A stretch of DNA of 64,000 nt from Amphiura filiformis (lineage: Eukaryota; Echinodermata; Ophiuroidea; Amphilepidida; Amphiuridae), in the NCBI RefSeq assembly GCF_039555335.1, contig NC_092647.1, forward strand, positions 6,710,608 through 6,774,607. Reading direction: 5' to 3'. Below are positions 5,706-58,939 of this stretch, in pieces. Every line of letters starts with the position of its first letter. Position 1 is the stretch's first letter. The notes beneath the pieces were generated by a model. It was not told the origin of the DNA and did not search any database. It saw only the letters and a program-made list of their open reading frames with translations. Position numbers and translations under genes: made by a program.

Positions 5706-5843
5706 ATAATAGAAGAAGCCAAACGTAGTTTACATGATGCCCTGTGTGTTATCCGTAACCTGGTGAGAGAAAACCATGTTGTGTATGGGGGTGGAGCAGC
5801 AGAGATTGCATGCTCACTGGCAGTCAGTGAAGAAGCAGATAAG
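5706..5843 (+). CDS. CCT5: CCT5 exon (third from last)
   Basis: This exon encodes 46 residues, [13 protein letters not shown] through SEEADK, and matches the glycine-rich GGGAAE segment of CCT5. The acceptor is TACAG before 5706 and the donor is AAG/GTGAGT at 5844. Both ends are phase 0. The 3' 115 bases and the donor are duplicated directly downstream (see 5861-5981). Confidence 0.96.
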
Positions 5844-8247
5844 GTGAGTGATTAGCATAGTTTACATGATGCCCTGTGTGTTATCCGTAACCTGGTGAGA
5901 GAAAACCATGTTGTGTATGGGGGTGGAGCAGCAGAAATTGCATGCTCACTGGCAGTCAGTGAAGAAGCAGTTAAGGTGAATAATTGTTGATGTATTCTAA
6001 TTCAGACTTGCTGATATTCCGTTTCTTCAACACTTTGGCAGAATCAAATCCGATATTCACCGATTTATAAATGCCTCACCAATATTTCAAATGAATTTTA
6101 ATGTTCTGAGGCTTCCAGTAGTTGTAAGTAATAAGTAACAAAATAAATTGAATACTCGAACATACTTTTTAGACTTACTATGTTACCTATGGTAATGCCA
6201 GGCTCCGTCAGGCAACTGACCTGCAATCACATCAGATAACCGTCCCAGCTGGTTAAGTTGCCTGATGAAATTTGGTGTTACCAGATGCATCATAGCAAGT
6301 CTTAAAAGAAACCTCCAGGCTCCAGTATTAAGATTTATTCCCAAAATTGAAGAGTATTCATTGTTTGTTTAAGAATCACCAAAGTAGATTCTTGTAAATT
6401 TGAAAGAAAGCCCTTATGTAAATTTGATCCTCAGTGACGATATGATGACGAGCCTGATAGGTGATATCTGCCTGCCCTGGTTGTCTCAGTCCAGACATGT
6501 TTTATGTCAGGACTGGTTATGATGATCAGGGTGGGTGATGTCACTGTAAGCATGAAGCACAAACACGAGGCATTTGTCTGAGAGGATAAATTAAAAAAGC
6601 TCATTTATGACTTGCACAGCTTCAGCTGTATTGATGAGATAATTGATTAGTTGATATTTCTTTGTAAGCTTTCAGATGTGTAGCTTATACAATAGAAGCA
6701 TGTGACATAGTTACTTGCAATCATAGCCAATTATATCATGATTACAGTGACTTTAGGCGTGTGATAGTTTTTACTATCACATGGCATGAAAAGAAACCAT
6801 GTGATATCATGATATAAAACAAATATTACATGCCAATATTCGTAATAGTAAAAATATATCATTTGGTCAAATTTTGACTGTCCTATTCCACTCGGCTACG
6901 CTTCGTGAAATAGAAAAGTCAAAATTTGACCTCATGATATATTTTGTACTATCACACTCATAGGCATGTAATATTTGTATAATATACAACTTTGTTCAAG
7001 AGAATCACACCAATTCTGCAACACACACACCAGTTAATTCCAGGGGGATAGTACTATGCAGAGTGGATTCATTTGAAGGTTTCCACTTGCTTAAATGCCA
7101 ATCTGGTATCGGTATACTAAAGTGAAAAATGATTACGACCTTCAGAAGTAAATCGAATTCCTTGCAGGAATATGTGACATTTCCTGTAGATATGTAAATA
7201 ATCCTTGAGTGAGATTCATACCATTACCTAGGATGAAATTCTTACGAAATTTTGACCTGAATTTCCCAACTCTTTTTCCAGATTTCCACCATAGAACAGT
7301 ACGCCATGAGGTCGTTTGCTGATGCTCTTGATTCGGTACCCATGGCGCTAGCAGAGAACAGTGGATTACATCCCATCCGTACCATGGCAGATGTGAAATC
7401 TAGACAGCTGAAGGAGAAGAACCCTAGACTAGGCATTGATTGCATGGGAAAGGGAACAAATGGTAAGTGTTGTGTGTGTTTTGTGTCATTAATTAAATGA
7501 ATTAAATATCAAGTTATAAAGTGAAGTATAATGTGTGTCTTACACTACATCTGGAATGTGGAAAGCACCTCTCTGTTGTGACTAAACCACTGTGATACAC
7601 ATTTTTGTTTAAAATTCTAGTTTCTAAAATACGAACTGCTAGGACAATTTAACTCAATACTTGGCATGCGAATGTTTGGGTGATGGGCCTCAATGTGATG
7701 AAGAAAACCTGTGTTTTAATTGGACCAGCCACCTTTTAAATTGGTGACATTTTCACTGTAGACCAGCATGGGGCAGTGGAATAGGTAGAGGGGAAAGAGT
7801 ATGTTGGTTTAAACTTCTACCAGGTCTGATATGACTATTTAATGTCATTGCGCTAGGCTTTTCCACTTTATATATTGTGCATAGTAATCGGAATTCCTTG
7901 TAAATATTTCTGGTGATTTGCGAGGCCAAACGCTATGCTACAGTAATCTCTATAGATCCATTGTGGAGCAACTCACTCTAACTGAATCACATGGTTGGAA
8001 CAGGTTAATCTGAATGGAACATTACACACAAGATCTGTTCTTGATGTAATTAATGTTTGTTGATTTAAAGTAGTGGGAACAATGCAAACTAATGAAGTTT
8101 TGGTGTTTTTAATTTACAGATATGAAGGAGCAACATGTTATAGAAACACTCCACGGCAAGAAGCAGCAGATCAATCTAGCAACACAGCTTGTGCGTATGA
8201 TTCTGAAAATTGACGACGCCAGGTCACCCAACTTTACTGGCCAATAA
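5706..8247 (+). CDS. CCT5: T-complex protein 1 subunit epsilon (CCT5), C-terminal part, three exons
   Basis: CCT5 is one of the eight paralogous subunits of the cytosolic TRiC/CCT double-ring chaperonin, which folds actin, tubulin and other proteins with ATP. The window holds only the C-terminal part, about 146 residues, in exons 5706-5843, 7282-7462 and 8120-8247. These cover the return from the apical to the intermediate domain and the C-terminal equatorial domain. Peptides such as [34 protein letters not shown] and [17 protein letters not shown] match vertebrate CCT5 nearly residue for residue. All junctions are GT-AG and in phase, and the gene ends with TAA at 8245-8247 after a TGQ tail. 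Upstream exons were not found in 1-5705, so they lie outside the window. The gene converges on TIMELESS. Its introns carry snoRNA-like elements, so it is probably a snoRNA host. Confidence 0.97.
5861..5981 (+). repeat. Second copy of CCT5 exon 3' end plus splice donor (132-bp tandem duplication)
   Basis: The bases from about 5729 to 5860 are repeated once, head to tail, with a period of 132 bp. The copy contains the last 115 bases of the exon, [11 protein letters not shown] included, plus a GTGAAT donor at 5976. It has only a handful of substitutions, including GAT to GTT (Asp to Val) near the end. Reading from the real exon into the copy meets TAG at 5853-5855, so the copy cannot simply extend the protein. 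It is best read as a recent, non-functional exon-end duplication. Confidence 0.93.
6428..6586 (+). ncRNA. Candidate C/D-box snoRNA-like RNA, copy 3 (CCT5 intron)
   Basis: Third paralog, in the next CCT5 intron. Box D, the terminal pairing and the inner hairpin are intact. The first box-C-like motif reads GTGACGA, but the second, ATGATGA, is unchanged, which suggests the second one is the real box C or that this copy is decaying. Confidence 0.48.
6819..6978. mobile_element. 160-bp fold-back element (CCT5 intron)
   Basis: Perfect 16-base ends (ACAAATATTACATGCC and its complement) plus further pairing around GTCAAAATTTGAC-type arms give a near-complete hairpin with a GC-richer centre near 6890. 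Confidence 0.75.
7282..7462 (+). CDS. CCT5: CCT5 exon (second from last)
   Basis: The exon encodes [20 protein letters not shown] and continues to [10 protein letters not shown]. The acceptor is TTTTTCCAG and the donor is ATG/GTAAGT. It starts in phase 0 and ends in phase 1. It corresponds to the equatorial-domain helices near the C-terminus of CCT5. Confidence 0.97.
7879..8024 (+). ncRNA. H/ACA-box snoRNA candidate, copy B (last CCT5 intron)
   Basis: Paralog of 5339-5485 in a different intron, about 95 bases upstream of the last coding exon. It keeps GCATAG/CTATGC, box H ACAGTA, TCCATT/AATGGA and box ACA (8019-8021) plus three bases. In the inner stem, changes on both strands (TTTAC to TTTGC against GTAAA) keep pairing through G-U, which supports selection on structure. 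Confidence 0.78.
8120..8247 (+). CDS. CCT5: CCT5 terminal coding exon
   Basis: The exon opens after TTTACAG and encodes [20 protein letters not shown] through [16 protein letters not shown], then TAA. The length to the stop agrees with vertebrate CCT5; only the last residues differ, as is usual for this subunit. Confidence 0.97.
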
Positions 8248-17874: not shown

Positions 17875-18848
17875 TCAATCATCATCACTGTCCGATTGCA
17901 AAATATGACGTTTGGCTACCTTCCTCAAAGGCAAATCGTCATCTGAATCGGATTCACTCTGGTCCTGAGACGGATTATCCACTGTCATCTGAACATCATC
18001 ATCACCTCCTGCGCTTGGTTTTGTTGACTGCTTTGTATTCAAAGGAGTATCATCATCAGAGTCGGAATCTAAAGCTAGTTTGGAAGAAGAACTAGGCTTT
18101 GATGAAGTGTTTAGAGGAGTATCATCATCGGAGTCAGAATCTAAAACAAGTCTTAGACTTGAAGTAGAACTTGCCTTTGTTGATGCCTTTGATGTGTCCA
18201 TAGGAGCATCATCTTCAGACTCAGAATCTAAACTTTCTAAAGCAAGTCTTGAAGTAGGGTTTTTGGTGGTGCTAGTTTTAGTGGGAGATTTAGCAGTAAG
18301 TGGAAGATCATCATCGGAGTCCGAATCTGAGTCAAGCCTGGACGTTGACTTTTTGGAAGAGCTAGATTTGGAAGACCTACTGGCTTTGGTGGAAGATTTG
18401 GCAGTAAGTTGAAGATCATCATCGGAGTCCTAATCCGAGTCAAGCCTGGACGTTGACAGTTTGGAAGAGCTAGATTTGGAAGACCTACTGGCTTTGGTGG
18501 AAGATTTGGCAGTAAGTGAAAGATCATCATCGGAGTCCAAATCCGAGTCAAGCCTTGATGCTGACTTTTTGGAAGAGCTAGATTTAGATGACTTATTGGA
18601 GGAAGGAAGATCATCATTATCGGAATCCGAGTCTAGGGAGGAAGCTCTTTTACTCTTCTTTGCTGGTTTATTTTCTTTATCCGAATCAGAATCGGAGTGT
18701 GGTTTAGATGCAGTTTTCTTCATGCTTAGTGGCATATCATCATCTGAGTCTGAATCACTTTGAAGAGATGACCGTTTTGAAGTAGAATTGGTTGAGCTTT
18801 GAAGACTGCCATTTTGTGAGGGTTGACTCTTGGCTGATGCTTGTGAAT
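17875..18848 (-). CDS. TIMELESS: TIMELESS terminal coding exon 30 (contains in-frame TAG)
   Basis: Residues 1312-1635 plus TGA at 17875-17877. Low-complexity tail rich in Ser, Lys and SDSDDD blocks, ending [10 protein letters not shown]; the human protein also ends in an acidic run. Acceptor ACCACAG at 18849. A TAG at 18430-18432 (codon 1451) replaces the Ser codon TCG seen at the same place in the neighbouring repeat unit. The frame continues open for 184 residues after it. Confidence 0.85.
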
Positions 18849-30800: not shown

Positions 30801-33800
30801 TTTGAACAAATCTGACGTCACCATGGGATTCCTTGACTCATTTCCTTTCCAAAAATGTATAGTTTTATATACTTTAGACATACAATTCAAAAATAATGAT
30901 GCTCGAAAAGGTCCATGTTCTCTCCCATTACTCTGCCCTTAAGTAAACCTCTCTTTAATAAGTGCTTTCAAGGATTTGAAAGTCCACTTAGTCTCACAGT
31001 CAAATACCATGAAATCAAGAATTCCAAAATTTGATTTTTTTTAAAATTGGAATGTCATCTTTAAAGGCCTATAACTCAAAAACATGTCTGGCGACTTGTT
31101 CCGGGTTTTGTTGGAGCTGGTCACATATATAAGTATTTCCTAGGCTGTCATGGACAAGGCCTATGCCAACAACCTTGTCAATAATAGGCTTTTTACACCT
31201 TGTCAACAGAACACAATTATTATCAATAAATATGTTCACCAAAGTACCAAATTCTAGTCAAAAGCATCTTGAATCTGAGTAGAAATTCACTAAATGATCA
31301 ATTCTGTGTCCTTCCCAAACATCAACTTCAATTCAAATGGGTTACCTGAATGGGTGCCTCCATTTGAAATAATTTGCAACCCCGTGTGGGAGATGAAGGT
31401 GTATGGATTTTAACTGGAATACCCTATTCCCATTCCCTTACCTGCTTTCTAGTTCTTGTGTCATCTAGAATATGTTCCATTATCTTATCAACAATATCTG
31501 TAAACAACAACAAATCAGTGGTATTAAATTCCACATTTAAAGCACATTATACTGCATAGGCAGAGCATAATATGGAGAACTATCAAGATAACAGCCAGGG
31601 ACCTACCCAAACAAATTGATAACACCATATAAATGTTCCATATTCATTCCATTAACCACCCATGCCCTTAGAAGTGCCCACACAGCAATAGGATCATGTG
31701 TGCAAGATACAACTACGTACACATGTATGTGGTACTAACCTTCTTCCGCATCTGGGTCTAGTTTATCCTTGTGCTCTGCATGTAGTTGCTTCAGTTCATC
31801 AACCTCTTCTTCATTCCAATGATGACCCATTTTACTGAAAAACAAAACACCATTGAACCGAGTCACATAAAACAGTCACAAGTTTAAGGGGCATTTTGTG
31901 ATCCACAGCCTCACCCTCCCCCCACTTTTATCAAAAAAAGTAGATTTTTATACCATAGGAAAGCTCTGGCTACATGTTTATGTCCAAAACATATTTCTTG
32001 CAGATTCATTCGCTTGGCAAAAATTTGTCTTTATTTCCTTAACATAACCAAATTACAACACGGTGGCCTATGGAGCACTGAGTTTAATAAGGCCTACCAC
32101 ATATAATCATGCATAACTTGCAAAACGCTAAATCGGAATTAACTAAAATTTTGGGAATAAGCTTTTTTTGTGAATATCTACTGAAAAATGTCATAAAATG
32201 AGGATGCCAGAATCACAAAATACTCCCTTAACAACAATAAATGATAGTCTGCTTCTAAAAACTTGGCACATTTGGGTAGATTCAGGTGGTGGCCGCATTG
32301 CATTCTCTAAATTCAGTAAATTTTCATCGTCAACCGCGTAATTGAATGGGATTATTTTGAAATTTTAAAACGCTTGAAATATCACAAACAAATAGGCCTA
32401 TGTTGATAAAGAATATAAATACAAGCTAAAACCGTTGGGGTTCGATAATGAACCCCACAAAACTAACCGACTATATTGGAAAATGCCATACGGCCGGGCG
32501 GTTTCACAAGTTACCGGCTCAATCATGTCATCCGCCGCCTGGGTAGATTGTACAATTCCTTACGTCACCCACAAGCAGTACTTTATTCTATCTCAAAAGA
32601 ATCCAAGGCAGTGTCTCATAACAAGAAATTCAGACGTGCTTGTCATTTGAATAAAGTTACCTGTCCTACAGATTAGGATTAAGGGTCAGTCGGATTATGC
32701 CAATCAAACAAAAGGCAACTTACACATCAGGTCTGACAGATCCGTATCCTTCCTCCAATTCATATAGATCCTGTCGACTTTTCCAGAAAAGTATCTCTAC
32801 AAACATCTTCTTGTTCTTAGTAGCCGCCTCAAAGAATTTACCGACGACAAATTTGGCAAATTTAGTCAACTCCTGTATGCAAAGAAATGAGCCAAGAGCA
32901 AGTGAAACTATCATTACTATCAAGATATTTCTTTGAACAAACCAATTTTTCTTCAGGTGAACTATAGAAAAAAGAAAAAGAGAGGGGAAAGAGGATGGAC
33001 GACAGAGGGTGAGACAGAGTGAAAGAGAGAGAGATCTCATATTTTCTGTATTAAAAGCCTTGGGGTGATGGGCATTAATTAGAGACAAATTTTCAAAGAA
33101 AACAAAAAGCTTAAAAATTGGGTTGAAAATCTAGAGTATCACTCGCTCCTGGTTTGTTTGCGGGTTCAAATCCAAGATGACGTTGCCCAACAATTTTGTT
33201 TCACTGCGTACCCGCATCAGAAACGCTAGTGATGCCAACAGCAAAGTGATAATATCGATCACTCAACCGCTTTGTCCAAAAAGCAGCAAATCGCTAAAAG
33301 TTGAATTCAAATTCAATCAGTCTGAACAAAGACAGTTGCTATAACAGGAGGCATGTAAACTGGTCTCACCTTGTACTGGGCCAGTTTTGAAACTGGATCA
33401 TTGAGAAGGTTCTGGAACACTCTGAACAAAGACAGTTGCTATAACAGGGGGCATGTAAACTGGTCTCACCTTGTACTGGGCCAGTTTTGAAACTGGATCA
33501 TTAAGAAGGTTCCAGAACACTCTGAACAAAGACAGTTACTATAACAGGAGGCATGTAAACTGGTCTCACCTTGTACTGGGCCAGTTTTGAAACTGGATCA
33601 TTAAGAAGGTTCCAGAACACTCTGAACAGAGACAGTTGCTATAACAGGGGGCATGTAAACTGGTCGCACCTTGTACTGGGCCAGTTTTGAAACCGGATCA
33701 TTAAGAAGGTTCTGGAACACTCTGAACAAAGACAGTTGCTATAACAGGGGGCATGTAAACTGGTCTCACCTTGTACTGGGCCAGTTTTGAAACCGGATCA

Positions 33801-36800
33801 TTAAGAAGGTTCTGGAACACTCTGAACAAAGACAGTTGCTATAACAGGGGGCATGTAAACTGGTCTCACCTTGTACTGGGCCAGTTTTGAAACCGGATCA
33901 TTACGAAGGTTCTGGAACACTCTGAACAGAGACAGTTGCTATAACAGGGGGCATGTAAACTGGTCTCACCTTGTACTGGGCCAGTTTTGAAACTGGATCA
34001 TTAAGAAGGTTCTGGAACACTCTGAACAAAGACAGTTGTTATAACAGGGGGCATGTAAACTGGTCTCACCTTGTACTGGGCCAGTTTTGAAACCGGATCA
34101 TTAAGAAGGTTCTGGAACACTCTGAACAGAGACAGTTGCTATAACAGGGGGCATGTAAACTGGTCTCACCTTGTACTGGGCCAGTTTTGAAACCGGATCA
34201 TTAAGAAGGTTCTGGAACACTCTGAACAAAGACAGTTGTTATAACAGGGGGCATGTAAACTGGTCTCACCTTGTACTGGGCCAGTTTTGAAACCGGATCA
34301 TTAAGAAGGTTCTGGAACACTCTGAACAAAGACAGTTGCTATAACAGGGGGCATGTAAACTGGTCTCACCTTGTACTGGGCCAGTTTTGAAACCGGATCA
34401 TTAAGAAGGTTCTGGAACACTCTGAACAGAGACAGTTGCTATAACAGGGGGCATGTAAACTGGTCTCACCTTGTACTGGGCCAGTTTTGAAACCGGATCA
34501 TTGAGAAGGTTCTGGAACACTCTGAACAAAGACAGTTGCTATAACAGGGGGCATGTAAACTGGTCTCACCTTGTACTGGGCCAGTTTTGAAACCGGATCA
34601 TTAAGAAGGTTCTGGAACACTCTGAACAAAGACAGTTGTTATAACAGGGGGCATGTAAACTGGTCTCACCTTGTACTGGGCCAGTTTTGAAACCGGATCA
34701 TTAAGAAGGTTCTGGAACACTCTGAACAGAGACAGTTGCTATAACAGGGGGCATGTAAACTGGTCTCACCTTGTACTGGGCCAGTTTTGAAACCGGATCA
34801 TTAAGAAGGTTCTGGAACACTCTGAACAGAGACAGTTGCTATAACAGGGGGCATGTAAACTGGTCTCACCTTGTACTGGGCCAGTTTTGAAACTGGATCA
34901 TTAAGAAGGTTCTGGAACACTCTGAACAAAGACAGTTACTATAACAGGGGCATGTAAACTGGTCTCACCTTGTACTGGGCCAGTTTTGAAACCGGATCAT
35001 TAAGAAGGTTCTGGAACACTCTGAACAAAGACAGTTGCTATAACAGGGGGCATGTAAACTGGTCTCACCTTGTACTGGGCCAGTTTTGAAACCGGATCAT
35101 TAAGAAGGTTCTGGAACACTCTGAACAGAGACAGTTGCTATAACAGGGGGCATGTAAACTGGTCTCACCTTGTACTGGGCCAGTTTTGAAACCGGATCAT
35201 TGAGAAGGTTCTGGAACACTCTGAACAAAGACAGTTGTTATAACAGGGGGCATGTAAACTGGTCTCACCTTGTACTGGGCCAGTTTTGAAACCGGATCAT
35301 TAAGAAGGTTCTGGAACACTCTGAACAGAGACAGTTGCTATAACAGGGGCATGTAAACTGGTCTCACCTTGTACTGGGCCAGTTTTGAAACCGGATCATT
35401 AAGAAGGTTCTGGAACACTCTGAACAAAGACAGTTGTTATAACAGGGGGCATGTAAACTGGTCTCACCTTGTACTGGGCCAGTTTTGAAACCGGATCATT
35501 AAGAAGGTTCTGGAACACTCTGAACAAAGACAGTTGCTATAACAGCGGGCATGTAAACTGGTCTCACCTTGTACTGGGCCAGTTTTGAAACCGGATCATT
35601 AAGAAGGTTCTGGAACACTCTGAACAGAGACAGTTGCTATAACAGGGGCATGTAAACTGGTCTCACCTTGTACTGGGCCAGTTTTGAAACCGGATCATTG
35701 AGAAGGTTCTGGAACACTCTGAACAAAGACAGTTGCTATAACAGGGGCATGTAAACTGGTCTCACCTTGTACTGGGCCAGTTTTGAAACCGGATCATTAA
35801 GAAGGTTCTGGAACACTCTGAACAAAGACAGTTGTTATAACAGGGGGCATGTAAACTGGTCTCACCTTGTACTGGGCCAGTTTTGAAACCGGATCATTAA
35901 GAAGGTTCTGGAACACTCTGAACAGAGACAGTTGCTATAACAGGGGGCATGTAAACTGGTCTCACCTTGTACTGGGCCAGTTTTGAAACCGGATCATTAA
36001 GAAGGTTCTGGAACACTCTGAACAGAGACAGTTGCTATAACAGGGGGCATGTAAACTGGTCTCACCTTGTACTGGGCCAGTTTTGAAACTGGATCATTAA
36101 GAAGGTTCTGGAACACTCTGAACAAAGACAGTTACTATAACAGGGGCATGTAAACTGGTCTCACCTTGTACTGGGCCAGTTTTGAAACCGGATCATTAAG
36201 AAGGTTCTGGAACACTCTGAACAAAGACAGTTGCTATAAAAGGGGGCATGTCAACTGGTCTCACCTTGTACTGGGCCAGTTTTGAAACCGGATCATTAAG
36301 AAGGTTCTGGAACACTCTGAACAGAGACAGTTGCTATAACAGGGGCATGTAAACTGGTCTCACCTTGTACTGGGCCAGTTTTGAAACCGGATCATTGAGA
36401 AGGTTCTGGAACACTCTGAACAGAGACAGTTGCTATAACAGGGGCATGTAAACTGGTCTCACCTTGTACTGGGCCAGTTTTGAAACCGGATCATTAAGAA
36501 GGCTCTGGAACACTCTGAACAGAGACAGTTGCTATAACAGGGGCATGTAAACTGGTCTCACCTTGTACTGGGCCAGTTTTGAAACCGGATCATTAAGAAG
36601 GTTCTGGAACACTCTGAACAAAGACAGTTGTTATAACAGGGGCATGTAAACTGGTCTCACCTTGTACTGGGCCAGTTTTGAAACCGGATCATTAAGAAGG
36701 TTCTGGAACACTCTGAACAAAGACAGTTGCTATAACAGGGGGCATGTAAACTGGTCTCACCTTGTACTGGGCCAGTTTTGAAACCGGATCATTAAGAAGG

Positions 36801-39800
36801 TTCTGGAACACTCTGAACAGAGACAGTTGCTATAACAGGGGCATGTAAACTGGTCTCACCTTGTACTGGGCCAGTTTTGAAACCGGATCATTGAGAAGGT
36901 TCTGGAACACTCTGAACAAAGACAGTTGCTATAACAGGGGGCATGTAAACTGGTCTCACCTTGTACTGGGCCAGTTTTGAAACCGGATCATTAAGAAGGT
37001 TCTGGAACACTCTGAACAAAGACAGTTGTTATAACAGGGGCATGTAAACTGGTCTCACCTTGTACTGGGCCAGTTTTGAAACCGGATCATTAAGAAGGTT
37101 CTGGAACACTCTGAACAGAGACAGTTGCTATAACAGGGGGCATGTAAACTGGTCTCACCTTGTACTGGGCCAGTTTTGAAACCGGATCATTAAGAAGGTT
37201 CTGGAACACTCTGAACAGAGACAGTTGCTATAACAGGGGGCATGTAAACTGGTCTCACCTTGTACTGGGCCAGTTTTGAAACTGGATCATTAAGAAGGTT
37301 CTGGAACACTCTGAACAAAGACAGTTACTATAACAGGGGGCATGTAAACTGGTCTCACCTTGTACTGGGCCAGTTTTGAAACCGGATCATTAAGAAGGTT
37401 CTGGAACACTCTGAACAGGGACACGTACCATTAAAGAGGGCATGTAAACTGGTCTCACCTTGTACTGGGCCAGTTTTGAAACCGGATCATTAAGAAGGTT
37501 CTGGAACACTCTGAACAGAGACAGTTGCTATAACAGGGGGCATGTAAACTGGTCTCACCTTGTACTGGGCCAGTTTTGAAACCGGATCATTGAGAAGGTT
37601 CTGGAACACTCTGAACAGAGACAGTTGCTATAACAGGGGGCATGTAAACTGGTCTCACCTTGTACTGGGCCAGTTTTGAAACCGGATCATTAAGAAGGTT
37701 CTGGAACACTCTGAACAAAGACAGTTGTTATAACAGGGGGCATGTAAACTGGTCTCACCTTGTACTGGGCCAGTTTTGAAACCGGATCATTAAGAAGGTT
37801 CTGGAACACTCTGAACAGAGACAGTTGTTATAACAGGGGGCATGTAAACTGGTCTCACCTTGTACTGGGCCAGTTTTGAAACCGGATCATTAAGAAGGTT
37901 CTGGAACACTCTGAACAGAGACAGTTGCTATAACAGGGGCATGTAAACTGGTCTCACCTTGTACTGGGCCAGTTTTGAAACCGGATCATTAAGAAGGTTC
38001 TGGAACACTCTGAACAGAGACAGTTGCTATAACAGGGGGCATGTAAACTGGTCTCACCTTGTACTGGGCCAGTTTTGAAACTGGATCATTAAGAAGGTTC
38101 TGGAACACTCTGAACAGAGACAGTTACTATAACAGGGGGCATGTAAACTGGTCTCACCTTGTACTGGGCCAGTTTTGAAACCGGATCATTAAGAAGGTTC
38201 TGGAACACTCTGAACAAAGACAGTTGCTATAACAGGGGGCATGTAAACTGGTCTCACCTTGTACTGGGCCAGTTTTGAAACCGGATCATTAAGAAGGTTC
38301 TGGAACACTCTGAACAGAGACAGTTGCTATAACAGGGGGCATGTAAACTGGTCTCACCTTGTACTGGGCCAGTTTTGAAACCGGATCATTGAGAAGGTTC
38401 TGGAACACTCTGAACAGAGACAGTTGATATAAGAGCGGAGCATCTCCTTGGTCAAAGCTAATGCGATGTAGCATCTTAACAGCACAGTGATTGGTGAAGA
38501 CTTTATTGGTACGATAAGTCTGAAGAGCAGATACGTAGCACCTGATAACATCTGGGTGACCGAATCTAGAAGAAAATAAAATATTAGGGTTGCATGACTG
38601 CAGTTTTGTCAAGTACAGATCTATGAATCCAATTTCATACATTCCTACCTCAATGGCAGACATTGCTGGGTTCCATCCCACCTGAAATGTCAAATAATGC
38701 GGCCTTGTCGGAGATTTTAAACTGCATTTCATCAGCCATGTTACATGTAGACGATAGAATGATGGAAGTTTACAACATTTTATTTAATAAAAGATCAATT
38801 TTAAGCAGCTCTTAACATCAGTTTGGTGTGGATGAATTCTGACCATCACTTGGCTTGTTGGATTTGTCCATAGTTGGCATCAAAAAAAGTTGCAACTCTC
38901 AGCAATGGGTTACCTGAATGGGTGATTCCATTTGAAATGACATCCTTTGTATGGGAGATTAAGGTCATGTCTTCTACAGGGGGTGTCTGGATTTCACCTG
39001 GAATAGCTGACAGATACACTGCTTTGATGGCATCTGTATCATGATCGCATGTGTATCACATATGGATGTTACCGTCTCGAGGGAGCCAAATGGAGTATAT
39101 ACTGTTAACCAGGCAAGTATACCTTAAATACAAGACAGAAAATGAGGGTTAACATGCTATTTCAACTTACTTGAGAATGTAGCCCTTGAAATTAAATTCT
39201 TCCTCTCCACGCACGTCTCTCTCCATTTCTGCCATCTCATCTTCCTCATCTAAACGACATCAAAATATCAAGTCATTAATTTAATAAGATTTCATACGTC
39301 CTTTCATGTGTTAGCCCTATGCTATTTGCCACTTCCTGTGGACCATTCCTATAATTGGCACATTCCTGCCGCTGATGGGGTTAACATCAATATCACACTG
39401 TTCACACACTATAAAACAATAAAAGTGAGCTCAAGAAGGGTATCCCCTGATTATAAGTATCACTTTCGCTACTGTTATGATAGGTTATATCGATGTTCAC
39501 CCCTATCAACGGCAGGAAGGTGCCATAATAGGAATGATCTATATCATTCTTTGACTAACCAATGTCTTTTGAAAATGGCAACAAACAACATAGCTGTAAA
39601 AATCCTGATCAGAATGACTCAATGATAACAATATAAATTGTATAATTTCAGAAAATTGCTATAAATTATATAAATAGTACTACAAATAAAAGTTCAAATC
39701 ATTTTCAATCCAATGCTTGTCTTACCTTCTTCCATGTCCATTTCAGGTTCTTCCATTGGTGGTGGTGCCACTGGAAAATTAACAAACAAACAAAATTATT

Positions 39801-42800: not shown

Positions 42801-45800
42801 GGTTTAAAAAAAATTTGTTTCCGGTAAGTCTTGCGCATTTCATTTCTTGGGAGCAATTTTACCTCATTTTGGTTTTTTTATATAAATTCAGAAATTATCA
42901 TATTATTATATTTTCAAGCAAAAAATGCATGACAAAATCCTTCAAAAGATGTTTGAATGAACATAGCATGACAAACATGTATGTGCAAGCCTGCAGAAAT
43001 GAATCCTACTTGCTCTGATTGGCTGGTATTTCCAATGACTTTTGATTGGTTTGATCAGTATTTATGCCCGCCCACAATTTGTCCTATAGTTTATTTGTCC
43101 CAGTAAATATGATCACTTACTGCTGTGAGCATTCAAATGAAATTAATACTACAGTACACAGGTCATTGTGCTATTCCAGTTAAAATCCATACACCCACAA
43201 TGGCCACATGAAAGACTGTAGACATGTCCTTAATCTCCCACACAGGGGGTGCAGAATTCAAATAGAGTCACCCATTCAGGTAACCTCATTTGAAATTCAC
43301 ACCCCCTGTGTGGAAGATTAAGATCATGTCTTCCATCAGGGGTGTATGGATGTCAACTGGAATAGCCGATTCTTTTGAAGATTTCACTCTCACCTGTACA
43401 AGGATTTTATTCTTTCCATTACAGTAGTTTTCCAGCATTTTCAAGAAGATGTGGGTAGTCTCTATCAAGTCTATTAAAAAGCTCCTGGAACAAGAAATCA
43501 TGTTAGTAGTCTCCAATCATATTTCTTAGTCAATGCAAATCATTATAAAGACTCTCAAAAAGCATAAAACTTGAAATAGTATGTAAATTTGGGGTACAAA
43601 GTCCCAAAACAAGCTGAAAATAAATATAAAAGTGCGGAAATTTGAACATAATACGAGAAGGAATTCAGGCAAAAGAAGACAAATTCAATAGTGACATCTT
43701 TCATATGTGACCTGTTACCAGAAATGAGCGTGAAGTCGCAAGTTGAAAGTTTCAAGACATCCTGGCTGACTGAGCAGATGTTCTTTGTTTGCAGTGCACC
43801 TGTACAAGCCAGTAGCATGTCCTTGAATGGCCTGTTGTGCCGTTCACAAAGGACATACTACTGGCTTGAACAGGTGCGTGTGAAACAAATTATACCAACG
43901 CCAGAACGTTTCAAATTACCAACTTGCAACTTTATGCCCATTTCGTGGTTGCAGGTCACATATAGTCCCTATGTTCTTCCATTGTGACAGACATTTAGTG
44001 ATTTTATGCCTGGTCAAAGTTTTGCCAGTGTTATCTCCCAGATTTCAGCTGTTAATGCCTGGATATGCTCGACATAAAAAAAAAGCCAAGAAAACGTAGC
44101 ACAAACAGAAGTCAACACCCTGTTTATAACTTTCATTTAAAGAAAACTTACTTTGTGCATCTGACATCGTCAAATTTCTTGAGCAGCATAACAAAGAGTT
44201 CTTTATACTCAATGACGTAGAAGATGTTACTCTGTGTAACTCTGGCAGATTCTCGTATCTTGGAATCTTTGGATCTGGTCATCGTTTCTAATGTTGCTAG
44301 TAACTCGCGGTAGGCTTTCAAAGCATAGTGCATGCTAAGAGGAAAAAATAATAATAAATTATTATATTTAGGGCAGAATGCATTTACACAATATATACTG
44401 TGCCTCTGCTTTGAAAAACATGGTTATTTTTTCACTTTCAAACATGTATGCAAACATCTCAAAAGTTAGGACTGCCTGAAGTCACCATGTCAACAATGCC
44501 TAGAAAAGTTGCTTATTGCCTTGTAAAAGTACCATCATTTTTGACCATTTTTTGTTCCTTTTCTTTGATGAAGGCACCGGATGAATCAAACTTCTATTTA
44601 CGCACTACTAACTAATCATAGGCTGTTGGGAGTTGATCGTCAGATTGAAAGTAGTATGTTTATATCTGGCTCCTATTTAATAGGCGTCTATCCATTTACT
44701 TTAAAATATCCTTGGTTGTATGATTTCAAGTCTCTCATCCTAATTTCAAACAGAAAGTATGTCCTATTAACAGAACCATACAATGCATTTAGAAAAAAGT
44801 ACTGCATTTTTTGCAAGTATCTCCAAAGTCATCTTGCTTATAAAAAGAAAAAAAGTCTTACCGTTTTGACCATACTGCTGATTCTTTCTTGTCCGTGACC
44901 ATCATGTCCATGTACTTGATGAGGTTGACCTGGACGTAATAGAATGCTTGCACAGAGAATGTCTCACTGAATGCAGGGGAAAAATGTAAACGTAATCTGA
45001 ATGACGATAGTTTTCCAGTTGAAATCCATAGACACCTATAAGACATGACCTCAGTCTCCCACACATGGAGTGTGAATTTCAAATGGGGTTACCTGAATGT
45101 GTGTGAAATCTACACCACATGTGTGGGAAATTAAGGCCATGTCTTCCATAGGGGGTGTATGGATTTTAACTGGATTACCTAGCAGATTGGAAAATACGCA
45201 GCATGTTGTCATCCGCCAAGTTATGAGAAAAATAGTATTTTACGAAAAATTGAAAAAACAAAATTGAAATTTTGACAGAAATTGCCCGAAAAAATTTGGG
45301 GAAAAAAAACAAAAACAAAAAAACAGGTTTAGCGATTTTCACCCAAACTGCACATTTTTGCCCAAATTTGACCCAAGATGGGTTTGTCAAGTCTTTGTCA
45401 TTCTAAATATGTATACCTTTATAATTATACTTTAGAACAATTTAGCAGTTATAATGCCCTAAAGTTTCCATAATTCCAGGGTTAAGACCAACCTTAATTA
45501 CTCTCTGCATTAGCAAAACCTGACAAAATATTTCTATCTGACCCATAGATACCCACCTGATGACATCCACTCTGAAGTGATAATGCCGACTGAATTCCAT
45601 AAAGAACCTCATGGCCCATAGGTAATATGTGTCTATACTAATACCCACCTGATGACATCCACTCTGAAGTGATAATGCCGACTGAATTCCATGAAGAACC
45701 TCATGGCCCATAGGTAATAAGTGTCTATACTAATACCCACCTGATGACATCCACTCTGAAGTGATAATGCCGACTGAATTCCATAAAGAACCTCATGGCC

Positions 45801-48800
45801 CATAGGTAATAAGTGTCTATACTAATACCCACCTGATGACATCCACTCTGAAATGATAATGCCGACTGAATTCCATAAAGAACCTCATGGCCCATAGGTA
45901 ATAAGTGTCTATACTAATACCCACCTGATGACATCCACTCTGAAGTGATAATGCCGACTGAATTCCATAAAGAACCTCATGGCCCATAGGTAATAAGTGT
46001 CTATACTAATACCCACCTGATGACATCCACTCTGAAGTGATAATGCCGACTGAATTCCATAAAGAACCTCATGGCCCATAGGTAATAAGTGTCTATACTA
46101 ATACCCACCTGATGACATCCACTCTGAAGTGATAATGCCGACTGAATTCCATAAAGAACCTCATGGCCCATAGGTAATAAGTGTCTATACTAATACCCAC
46201 CTGATGACATCCACTCTGAAGTGATAATGCCGACTGAATTCCATAAAGAACCTCATGGCCCATAGGTAATAAGTGTCTATACTAATACCCACCTGATGAC
46301 ATCCACTCTGAAGTGATAATGCCGACTGAATTCCATAAAGAACCTCATGGCCCATAGGTAATATGTGTCTATACTAATACCCACCTGATGACATCCACTC
46401 TGAAGTGATAATGCCGACTGAATTCCATAAAGAACCTCATGGCCCATAGGTAATAAGTGTCTATACTAATACCCACCTGATGACATCCACTCTGAAGTGA
46501 TAATGCCGACTGAATTCCATAAAGAACCTCATGGCCCATAGGTAATAAGTGTCTATACTAATACCCACCTGATGACATCCACTCTGAAGTGATAATGACG
46601 ACTGAATTCCATAAAGAACCTCATGGCCCATAGGTAATAAGTGTCTATACTAATACCCACCTGATGACATCCACTCTGAAATGATAATGCCGACTGAATT
46701 CCATGAAGAACCTCATGGCCCATAGGTAATAAGTGTCTATACTAATACCCACCTGATGACATCCACTCTGAAGTGATAATGCCGACTGAATTCCATAAAG
46801 AACCTCATGGCCCATAGGTAATAAGTGTCTATACTAATACCCACCTGATGACATCCACTCTGAAGTGAAAATGCCGACTGAATTCCATAAAGAACCTCAT
46901 GGCCCATAGGTAATAAGTGTCTATACTAATACCCACCTGATGACATCCACTCTGAAGTGATAATGCCGACTGAATTCCATAAAGAACCTCATGGCCCATA
47001 GGTAATATGTGTCTATACTAATACCCACCTGATGACATCCACTCTGAAGTGATAATGACGACTGAATTCCATAAAGAACCTCATGGCCCATAGGTAATAC
47101 GTGTCTATACTAATACCCACCTGATGACATCCACTCTGAAGTGATAATGACTACTGAATTCCATAAAGAACCTCATGGCCCATAGGTAATAAGTGTCTAT
47201 ACTAATACCCACCTGATGACATCCACTCTGAAGTGATAATGCCGACTGAATTCCATGAAGAACCTCATGGCCCATAGGTAATAAGTGTCTATACTAATAC
47301 CCACCTGATGACATCCACTCTGAAGTGATAATGACGACTGAATTCCATAAAGAACCTCATGGTCCATAGGTAATATGTGTCTATACTAATACCCACCTGA
47401 TGACATCCACTCTGAAGTGATAATGACGACTGAATTCCATAAAGAACCTCATGGTCCATAGGTAATAAGTGTGTCTATACTAATACCCACCTGATGACAT
47501 CCACTCTGAAGTGATAATGCCGACTGAATTCCATAAAGAACCTCATGGTCCACAGGTAATATGTGTCTATACTAATACCCACCTGATGACATCCACTCTG
47601 AAGTGATAATGACGACTGAATTCCATAAAGAACCTCATGGTCCATAGGTAATATGTGTCTATACTAATACCCACCTGATGACATCCACTCTGAAGTGATA
47701 ATGACGACTGAATTCCATAAAGAACCTCATGGTCCATAGGTAATAAGTGTGTCTATACTAATACCCACCTGATGACATCCACTCTGAAGTGATAATGACG
47801 ACTGAATTCCATAAAGAACCTCATGGCCCATAGGTAATATGTGTCTATACTAATACCCACCTGATGACATCCACTCTGAAGTGATAATGACGACTGAATT
47901 CCATAAAGAACCTCATGGCCCATAGGTAATAAGTGTCTATACTAATACCCACCTGATGACATCCACTCCGAAGTGATAATGCCGACTGAATTCCATAAAG
48001 AACCTCATGGCCCATAGGTAATATGTGTCTATACTAATACCCACCTGATGACATCCACTCTGAAGTGATAATGCCGACTGAATTCCATAAAGAACCTCAT
48101 GGCCCATAGGTAATAAGTGTCTATACTAATACCCACCTGATGACATCCACTCTGAAGTGATAATGCCGACTGAATTCCATAAAGAACCTCATGGCCCATA
48201 GGTAATATGTGTCTATACTAATACCCACCTGATGACATCCACTCTGAAGTGATAATGCCGACTGAATTCCATAAAGAACCTCATGGCCCATAGGTAATAT
48301 GTATCATCATTCTCCTGAGCTTTCTGATGAAGGATGTGATCCTGTTGAAAGTAAATCACAAATTCCTTATTTTAGTCTGATACTATTATAAATATTTATA
48401 CCTGACTTTGTTACCAGTTTACATACTGAATTACTACTTCATACATCCTATGACCATGACAGCCTCCTCAGCCTACACACAATGTTGTCTGGTATCTCAA
48501 AGCATGGCTATCACACCCAGGGAGTACAAGCATGTGTAGAAATGTTCATTCTCAATACATTATAGTTATGACAAAACAAGTACATTAGTAAATTAAGCAG
48601 TACATAAAATGTGTCCCAGCCAGATTTGGGGTTTTATGGTTAATAAATAAAATAAAATCACATTTGTAAAATGACCCCAATTAACTCCTAGATGACCTTT
48701 GACCTCACAATTGTTGACATCACACATGTCAATGTACCCAAAGATCACTGTGTCCAAGCAGATGTCCAAGTCCAATTGAAATCCATCAAAGCATGGGTGA

Positions 48801-51800
48801 GAAATCAACAAACATCTGAGCTCATCGGGAACAAAAAAACTTTCTTTGGCGGGAACAATAACTTATTGGCTCATACCTTAACAGCATGCATAAGTGGATT
48901 GTAGCAGTTATCAAGAAACAGCTCGCAGAACTCCCTCAAGAATAGACGAATACTAAGAGTGGATCTCCTGGTGAGCGACGTGTCTTTCATCGGCATGCGG
49001 TTCTTAGCTCGTTTCTTAGGATTCTTCTCCCTGTCAAATGAGATATGCTTGGCTTTCTGCGGGGCTTGGTGATAGATGACATCTCTCTCTGATATGGACT
49101 TGAAATTCTTGACATAGAATGTACCTCCAAATCTGGAATGTCTGTAGGACAAGGGAATGGTGGAATGAACTTTTTTACTGTGAAAATTCTCAGTCTTTTA
49201 AGAAGGTTTTTAACAGTTGATCATTTCAAAAACCTCCCACAGGCATAAGTTTGTTTACTTGAAAAAAGCTAAAGTTGTTCAAAGGAGCTGAAAATGGGGT
49301 GAAATTGGCCAAAACCACTCAAAATTGGGCCGAAAAGAAGTAAAAATGCGTAAATATGAGCAGTCAAAAAAGTTGAATTCAGGTGATCAGCTGAAAAATC
49401 TCATGCCTGCTCCCACCTTGCACTTAATAAATGAATGAGAAGATGGCAAAGCTAACAGAAATGGCAGAGAAAAGGCAAGGTATTGGAAGGAAGCAGATTT
49501 GCAGGAATTCATATATATCATAGATGTCTCTTATTTCACATACAGCCTGGCGATTCATAGACGGTAGACCCATCGCATTTTGCATTTCACTTTGGGTTGA
49601 AATAAGAAACGTCTGATAATATGAGTTCCTGCGAACCTGTTCCTTTCTTGCCTTTTCTCTGCCATTTCTGTAGCTTGCTTAGCCATCTTTTTCATTCCTC
49701 CCCTCTCTCCCTTCACTCACCTTCCACTGCCTTTTAACACCCTGGCCTTTTTCCTCTGCTATTCCCATTGATTCTCTCCCTCCCTTCACACTCACCTTCC
49801 ACTGCCTTTTAACACCCTGGCCTTTTCTCTGCTATTCCCATTCATTCCCTCCCTCCCTTCATACTCACCCTCCCACTGCCTTTTAACACCCTGGCCTTTT
49901 CTCTGCTATTCCCATTGATTCTCTCCCTCCCTTCACTCACCTTCCACTGCCTTTTAACACCCTGGCCTTTTCTCCGCTATTCCCATTCATTCTCTCCCTC
50001 CCTTCACACTACCTTTCGATCGACATGTTGGCCTTTTCTCTGCTAATCCCCTTCATTCTCTCCCTCCCTTCACTCACCCTCCCACTGCCTTTTAACACCC
50101 TGGCCTTTTCTCTGCTATTCCCATTGATTCTCTCCTCCCTTCACTCACCTTCCACTGCCTTTTAACACCCTGGCCTTTTCTCTGCTATTCCCATTGATTC
50201 TCTCCCTCCCTTCACTCACCTTCCACTGCCTTTCAACACACTGGCCTTTTACCTCTGCTATTCCCATTGATTCTCTCCCTCCCTTCACTCACCTTCCACT
50301 GCCTTTTAACACCCTGGCCTTTTCTCTGCTATTCCCATTGATTCTCTCCCTCCCTTTACTCACATTCCACTGCCTTTTAACACCCTGGCCTTTTCTCTGC
50401 TATTCCCATTGATTCTCTCCCTCCCTTCACTCACCTTCCACTGCCTTTTAACACCCTGGCCTTTTCTCTGCTATTCCCATTGATTCTCTCCTCCCTTCAC
50501 TCACCTTCCACTGCCTTTTAACACCCTGGCCTTTTCTCTGCTATTCCCATTGATTCTCTCCCTCCCTTCATACTCACCTCCCACTACCTTTCGACATGTT
50601 GGCCTTTTCTCTGCTATTCCCATTCATTCTCTCCCTCCCTTCACACTACCTTTCGATCGACACGTCTGCCTTTTCTCTGCTAATCCCCTTCATTACCTCC
50701 CTCCCTTCACACTCACCTTCCACTGCCTTTCAACACACTGGCCTTTTACCTCTGCTATTCTCATTCATTCTCTCCCTCCCTTTACACTCACCTTCCACTG
50801 CCTTTCAACACCCTGGCCTTTTTCTCTGCTATTTCCCTCTGTCTAGCCATCTCCAGTTCTTGCTCATCCTTCTGTTTCTCACTAGAAGCCCTTGTAATAC
50901 CTGCTTTAGCCAGCTGCTCAGGGGTCTGCACATAATAATAATAGAAAGAAACTAATGATATTACGTCCATTCAGGTGATGACATAATCATGATATGTTAT
51001 GCGACAAAGAATGGGCTAGTCCAATTGAAATCCATATACCCCCTATGGAAAACATGACCTTGATCTCCCACACAGGAGGTGTACATTTTAAATGGAGTCA
51101 TCCATTCAGGTAACTTCATTTAAAATTCGCACTCCCTGTCTTAGTAAGAGATTAAGATCATGTCTTCCACATGGGCTGTTTGTATTTTAACAGGACTAGC
51201 CAATGCAAGACTCAGTTATGCAGGATATTGGCATCGTTCAAAGTTAAGTCAAACAAAGAGATGTTTCAAAGCGCTTTTGTAAACAAATAATCTAAAAGGA
51301 TGTTTTGAATGCAAGTTTTGTAACATCTCAAACTTACTTTTTAACAGACTTAGTTTGAATTGAGGAGGGGCACATTCCACACTTGATTTCTAAATTGTCG
51401 CACACTTTGAGACAAAATATCATGGTAGTGTACTCAAGAAATGTAATGTTAGCACATACAAAAAGACGGACTGCACAGTCTCTTTCTGAACAAGTTCAGG
51501 AGAGGAAAAAACCAAGCATAACAGACCTGTTCTCTGAGCATCAGTGAAGTAATCTCTATGGCATGCATACACCATTGTTGTTCTTCTTCAGAGCTGGCCA
51601 CATACAAGATAAGCTTATCCATACCGCTCACATTGAGAGCCCACAAGACTTGGTCGTGTACACTGGCATCATCATCAGTTCTCTAATTAAGTGAAAATAA
51701 ACAATTAAAATAATGGATGAGGTGAATAGGAAATAAAATTTCAATATGATTGATGAGACAGATAAGCCTGCTAAATTATCAGCCTCTAAAAACTATTTTG

Positions 51801-58866: not shown

Positions 58867-58939
58867 GGCGCGGTGGCCAAGTGGCTAAGGCGTCTGTCTC
58901 GTAAACAGAAGATCGAGGGTTCGAATCCCTCTCGTGCCT
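58867..58939 (+). tRNA. tRNA-Thr (anticodon CGU)
   Basis: A 73-nt cloverleaf. The acceptor GGCGCGG pairs with TCGTGCC (two G-U), the D arm TGGCCAAGTGGCTAAGGC is canonical, the anticodon stem TCTGT/ACAGA encloses CTCGTAA (anticodon CGU, codon ACG), and the T arm GAGGG-TTCGAAT-CCCTC is perfect. Discriminator is T. No intron. A T-rich tract begins within 10-15 bases downstream (ATATTTTGT), a possible pol III terminator. Closely matches vertebrate tRNA-Thr-CGU. Confidence 0.95.

Follow-up and report, generated by a model that had tools for sequence, protein, structure and literature searches.

Tandem duplications that span the exon–intron boundaries of lancelet genes have been described under the name of mirages, and these are found at 5' as well as at 3' boundaries (PMC3087553, PMC3902484). 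In the available parts of these reports, which cover Adh3 and globin genes together with boundary-spanning repeats in PGBD5, the authors judge splicing to be undisturbed; BflGb6 is composed of homogenised units with divergent edges, and Adh3 displays both length instability and somatic instability (PMC3087553, PMC3902484).

Three further systems are related to this class. The human IFI6 (6-16) minisatellite provides multiple splice donor sites, according to the title of Turri et al. 1995 as given in PMC4526556, and in the accessible text of the latter two downstream repeat units serve as donors, resulting in three mRNA species. In the Rogers model, new introns arise when exon segments carrying AGGT are duplicated in tandem, with potato RdRp, fission yeast and Drosophila named in the excerpts at hand (PMC4974935, PMC2891723). 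Finally, genes of human segmental duplications contain, as far as the available portion of the report goes, variable internal tandem repeats at exon–intron boundaries, with novel introns or exon-retained repeats (PMC2812944). A TIMELESS gene with arrays of this kind is not reported among the titles listed in our literature search, the coverage of which left subscription journals mostly outside.

Here, we are describing a window of 64,000 nucleotides from Amphiura filiformis, i.e., the whole stretch of DNA that was analysed, in which four tandem repeats have units spanning an exon–intron boundary, each of them at a 5' splice site (4/4; Table 1). The three large ones lie in one gene, on the minus strand, which was identified as TIMELESS (Pfam PF04821). 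Its joined exons match human TIMELESS (PDB 7pfo_K, E 3.4e-183), in agreement with the assignment made in the first-pass annotation, and the exon join ...YK/EL... is gap-free in this alignment. By analogy with the lancelet genes, the anatomy of the arrays fits the mirage class, and we consider it likely that they are mirage-type minisatellites which grow within introns, are tolerated and are nearly neutral. The class itself has already been described; new in the present case are the copy number, the occurrence of three arrays within a single gene, the 12-unit periodicity and the GTG with which all duplicated donors begin.

Table 1. Features of the window with their positions (position 1 is the first letter of the window).
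Feature	Position	Strand	Description or source
Array 1	33321..38432	-	51.2 copies, 100-bp unit, 97% matches; TRF
Coding exon whose end seeded array 1	38358..38565	-	208 bp; donor at 38357/38358
Array 2	45549..48299	-	~30 copies, 92-bp unit; TRF
Coding exon whose end seeded array 2	48229..48341	-	113 bp
Array 3	49703..50833	-	~16 copies, 71-bp unit, 87% match; TRF
Coding exon whose end seeded array 3	50792..50925	-	134 bp
Two-copy duplication	5726..5979	+	period 132 bp, 98%; TCP-1/cpn60 chaperonin gene, Pfam PF00118
108-bp repeat	18277-18599	-	three copies; serine/aspartate-rich protein reading, in-frame TAG in the middle copy
tRNA-Thr (CGT)	58867-58939	+	Rfam and ARAGORN

In array 1, each unit comprises 69 bases from the 3' end of a TIMELESS exon, provisionally numbered exon 17, followed by the donor, mostly GTGAGA. 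The 100-bp unit in 51 copies which had been proposed from inspection of the letters was recovered by TRF, and the 69 exonic bases and the donor of each unit were confirmed; the intronic part had been put at 25 bp, which is 6 short of the 31 bp that are intronic in total. Near-identity of the 51 donors, likewise claimed, was borne out, with 50 reading AAG/GTGAGA and one AAG/GTGCGA (unit 48, ~33672). An acceptor-like sequence had been attributed to every unit. This holds for most of them, which carry CTGTCTYTGTTCAG, and the 52 nt counted on the sequence from there to the donor are correct; unit 11 reads TGTCCCTGTTCAG instead.

Beyond array 1, the architecture of an exon end plus its donor recurs at three further places within the window. 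The array 2 unit is composed of a TIMELESS exon end (...GTCATCAG), the donor GTGGGTAT and, as judged by eye, ~10 nt of filler, and that of array 3 of the 3' end (...GGCAGTGGAAG) of a third TIMELESS exon with a GTGAGTG donor. Array 3 is partly decayed; 13 donors of its ~16 units match GGTGAGT. In the chaperonin gene, which we take to be CCT5-like, the duplication copies the exon end GCAGATAAG together with the donor GTGAGTGATT. The coding exon end is, in each case, the first unit of its own array. A comparison of 21 TIMELESS donors, derived from the part of the gene's exons that was identified, with up to 4 kb of downstream sequence gave matches for three (scores 104–196, shuffle maxima 26–28), the other 18 remaining below the shuffle maxima. 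The starts of 20 TIMELESS exons and one chaperonin exon were searched for in up to 3 kb of upstream sequence; 20 of the 21 acceptors did not exceed the shuffle maximum and one lay barely above it (28 vs 26), so that none is clearly duplicated. The AG dinucleotides at unit junctions had also been viewed as the possible ends of mini-introns of 16–35 nt (by eye), a reading that was dropped because the AG lies partly within the junction homology and is not exact in every one of the four repeats.

With Rfam at gathering thresholds, tRNA-Thr was the only hit in the window, and ARAGORN returned the same one. A dispersed repeat with translations like 'PxMEDMxLIxHTxGVxF' occurs at several places, e.g., 45054-45239 and 43289-43516 (-), and is probably a mobile element. 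The three-copy repeat on the minus strand is listed in Table 1.

Among the donors read, the first alone keeps the frame in each array; in array 1, this is the donor at 38357/38358. From the later donors, translation runs into a premature stop in 50/50 cases in array 1, in 29/29 in array 2, in 12/12 in array 3 (where the test used the 13 donors matching GGTGAGT among ~16 units), and in 1/1 in the chaperonin gene. The earlier statement that only the first donor preserves the frame and that reading on gives a stop after 22 codons was thus seen to apply to all 50 later donors of array 1. The arrays are most likely harmless because the first donor alone keeps the protein readable, and donor 1 is probably the one in use, judging from reading frame and homology. 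When donors of similar strength compete under exon definition, the one lying upstream is favoured according to the accessible part of PMC9225289; therefore, the frame-keeping first donor would probably be used and the remainder of the array be removed as intron. That exon definition applies at the three array exons, the upstream introns of which measure 535–605 nt, is an assumption. In a simple match to the donor consensus, the four array donors reach 6–7 of 9 positions and 18 other donors 5–8.

On this basis, the following route can be proposed for the mirage-type minisatellites. The initial tandem duplication would begin within an exon and reach a short way beyond the 5' splice site of that exon, and unequal exchange would subsequently expand the duplicated segment. 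Since exon definition favours the shortest exon, the spliceosome would take the first donor, with the later copies leaving as intron; this choice, we infer, is the reason why the arrays are tolerated. As the array grows, the intron would become longer and the preference for the first donor stronger, so that copies could pile up in a nearly neutral manner, and exchange of units would couple the evolution of the coding exon end to that of its non-coding copies. Simple neutral expansion, one of the options raised in the first-pass annotation, fits best, given the anatomy common to the four loci and the premature stops read from the later donors.

The lengths of the introns are informative in this context. 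Those carrying arrays 1, 2 and 3 measure 5485, 3262 and 1650 nt, and the spans from first to last donor are 4988, 2672 and 1071; upon subtraction, ~497, 590 and 579 nt are left, compared with 242–936 nt for the 15 other TIMELESS introns of which both ends were identified. The three long introns are, hence, ordinary-sized introns plus an array, which suggests that they pre-existed. Herein lies the relation to the Rogers model, with which the arrays have in common, in the text of the model that is available, that a splice signal is copied by tandem duplication. In that model the duplicated segment is the new intron and an intron is created, whereas here ~497–590 nt of intron remain after subtraction, both the donors and the introns seem to be older than the duplication, and the effect of the latter is to lengthen the intron.

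Turnover of units is evident in the larger arrays. Array 1 comprises 25 distinct units among 51 and has a 12-unit higher-order pattern, with a mean of 1.62 differences at lag 12 vs 2.36–2.93 at lags 1–11; array 2 comprises 16 distinct units among 30, of which near neighbours are most alike. Divergent units are found at the distal edge, namely units 49–51 in array 1 and unit 30, in its intronic part, in array 2. Homogenised units with a left-out edge are, accordingly, present at the distal edge only, the coding-side unit of arrays 1 and 2 not being divergent. In array 1, units 1 (coding) and 9 have the same sequence, and in array 2 this is true of coding unit 1 and units 2, 15, 22 and 30 over positions -72 to +8; the coding copies, therefore, do not form a group of their own, and we infer exchange between coding and non-coding units. 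In array 2, the last unit departs from the array pattern at +8 and the inner junctions carry the filler mentioned above, which suggests end-joining repair. Within array 1, changes cluster locally in unit 22 (36240-36260) and in units 10/11 (37410-37450), possibly through patch replacement.

Variation among the copies was inspected for traces of selection. In array 1, types confined to units 10/11 (6/21), and in array 2 those confined to edge units 1 and 30 (8/20), were left out. Of the 27 variant types remaining, one fell within the 9-base donor core vs 2.5 expected, so that avoidance of the core is not significant (P 0.27). In the exon-derived parts, synonymous changes are mildly over-represented (8 of 17 events vs 3.5–4.6 expected, P 0.01–0.06; events classified by hand, variants private to units 10/11 excluded), with P 0.04–0.21 in a flat-rate test. 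This excess is a mild argument against the copies being plainly neutral; it could reflect constraint on them, or exchange with the coding unit.

Set against the described systems, the TIMELESS arrays share with the amphioxus mirages (Adh3, BflGb6/BflGb9, PGBD5 and others) a repeat unit lying across an exon–intron boundary. The amphioxus mirages have 2–7 copies where the accessible text gives a number, in contrast to ~51, 30 and 16 in three arrays of one gene, and they affect both exon ends, whereas all four repeats of the window are at 5' splice sites only. The IFI6 minisatellite has a unit of 12 bp. In this short-unit system, as far as the excerpt goes, downstream donors are used, while reading from the later TIMELESS donors examined leads to a premature stop. 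For the human segmental-duplication genes, novel introns or exon-retained repeats are reported, whereas the TIMELESS arrays are predicted to leave the mature message unchanged.

Several other explanations have been weighed. Surplus donors might bind U1, or be used occasionally to yield premature-stop transcripts that are degraded, and thereby tune TIMELESS output. The identity of 50 of the 51 array 1 donors, the premature stop from each of the 50 later ones, the occurrence of three arrays within TIMELESS and the small, if not significantly small, number of donor-core variants (1/27) are in line with such a regulatory function, which we nevertheless regard as improbable: homogenisation alone predicts identical donors, the core variants do not differ significantly from expectation (P 0.27), array 3 is decaying (13 of ~16 donors matching), and the chaperonin gene has the same structure in two copies. 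The proposals of a U1 decoy and of a poison-exon reservoir, both contained in the first-pass annotation, accordingly find no direct support, and the lancelet counterparts are reported, in the parts available, without disturbance of splicing (PMC3087553, PMC3902484). Very improbable, in our view, is an ongoing gain of introns or birth of mini-exons, in which inner units would be turning into exons or new introns. Units of array 1 do bear both the acceptor-like CTGTCTYTGTTCAG and a donor, but 52 nt are not divisible by three, and mini-exons would be spaced by 48 nt (100 - 52); introns of 48 nt are probably too short for animal splicing. A model for such a course has been published and was proposed for the lancelet globin mirages (PMC3087553, PMC4974935, as far as available), yet the ordinary-sized intron left after subtracting the extra copies suggests that the introns pre-existed. 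Long near-identical arrays are prone to assembly error; however, a false array or an inflated copy number is highly improbable given 25 distinct units of 51 and 16 of 30, the 12-unit pattern with divergent edge units, and sister arrays with different unit lengths.

The placement of the repeats calls for a separate consideration. Four of ten TRF arrays with units of at least 30 bp span a donor, or three of nine when array 1 is left out. With uniform placement and 24–60 donors in the window being assumed, the post hoc chance of at least four donor-spanning arrays is 0.0001–0.004, and that of all three large arrays spanning donors 0.00003–0.0004. This bias toward donors is not explained by neutrality alone. 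Furthermore, G occupies +3 (GTG) in 4/4 duplicated donors, as against 1 of 20 others examined (post hoc Fisher test, P 0.0005). If this difference is real, it indicates either a duplication process tied to sequence or a filter that determines which donors tolerate duplication without harm. It is conceivable, albeit doubtful, that in this genome a donor-linked process preferentially duplicates and amplifies segments whose end lies shortly after a GTG-type 5' splice site, and that coding exon ends thereby evolve together with dozens of copies that are spliced out.

The question raised by the window is why its duplications strike 5' splice sites and not acceptors. The arrays constitute a natural experiment on the choice of the spliceosome among dozens of near-identical donors, placed every 100 bases. 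If the first donor is always used, exon definition would prevail over intron proximity at an extreme, and the arrays suggest a route by which introns may grow by several kilobases without harm to the protein.
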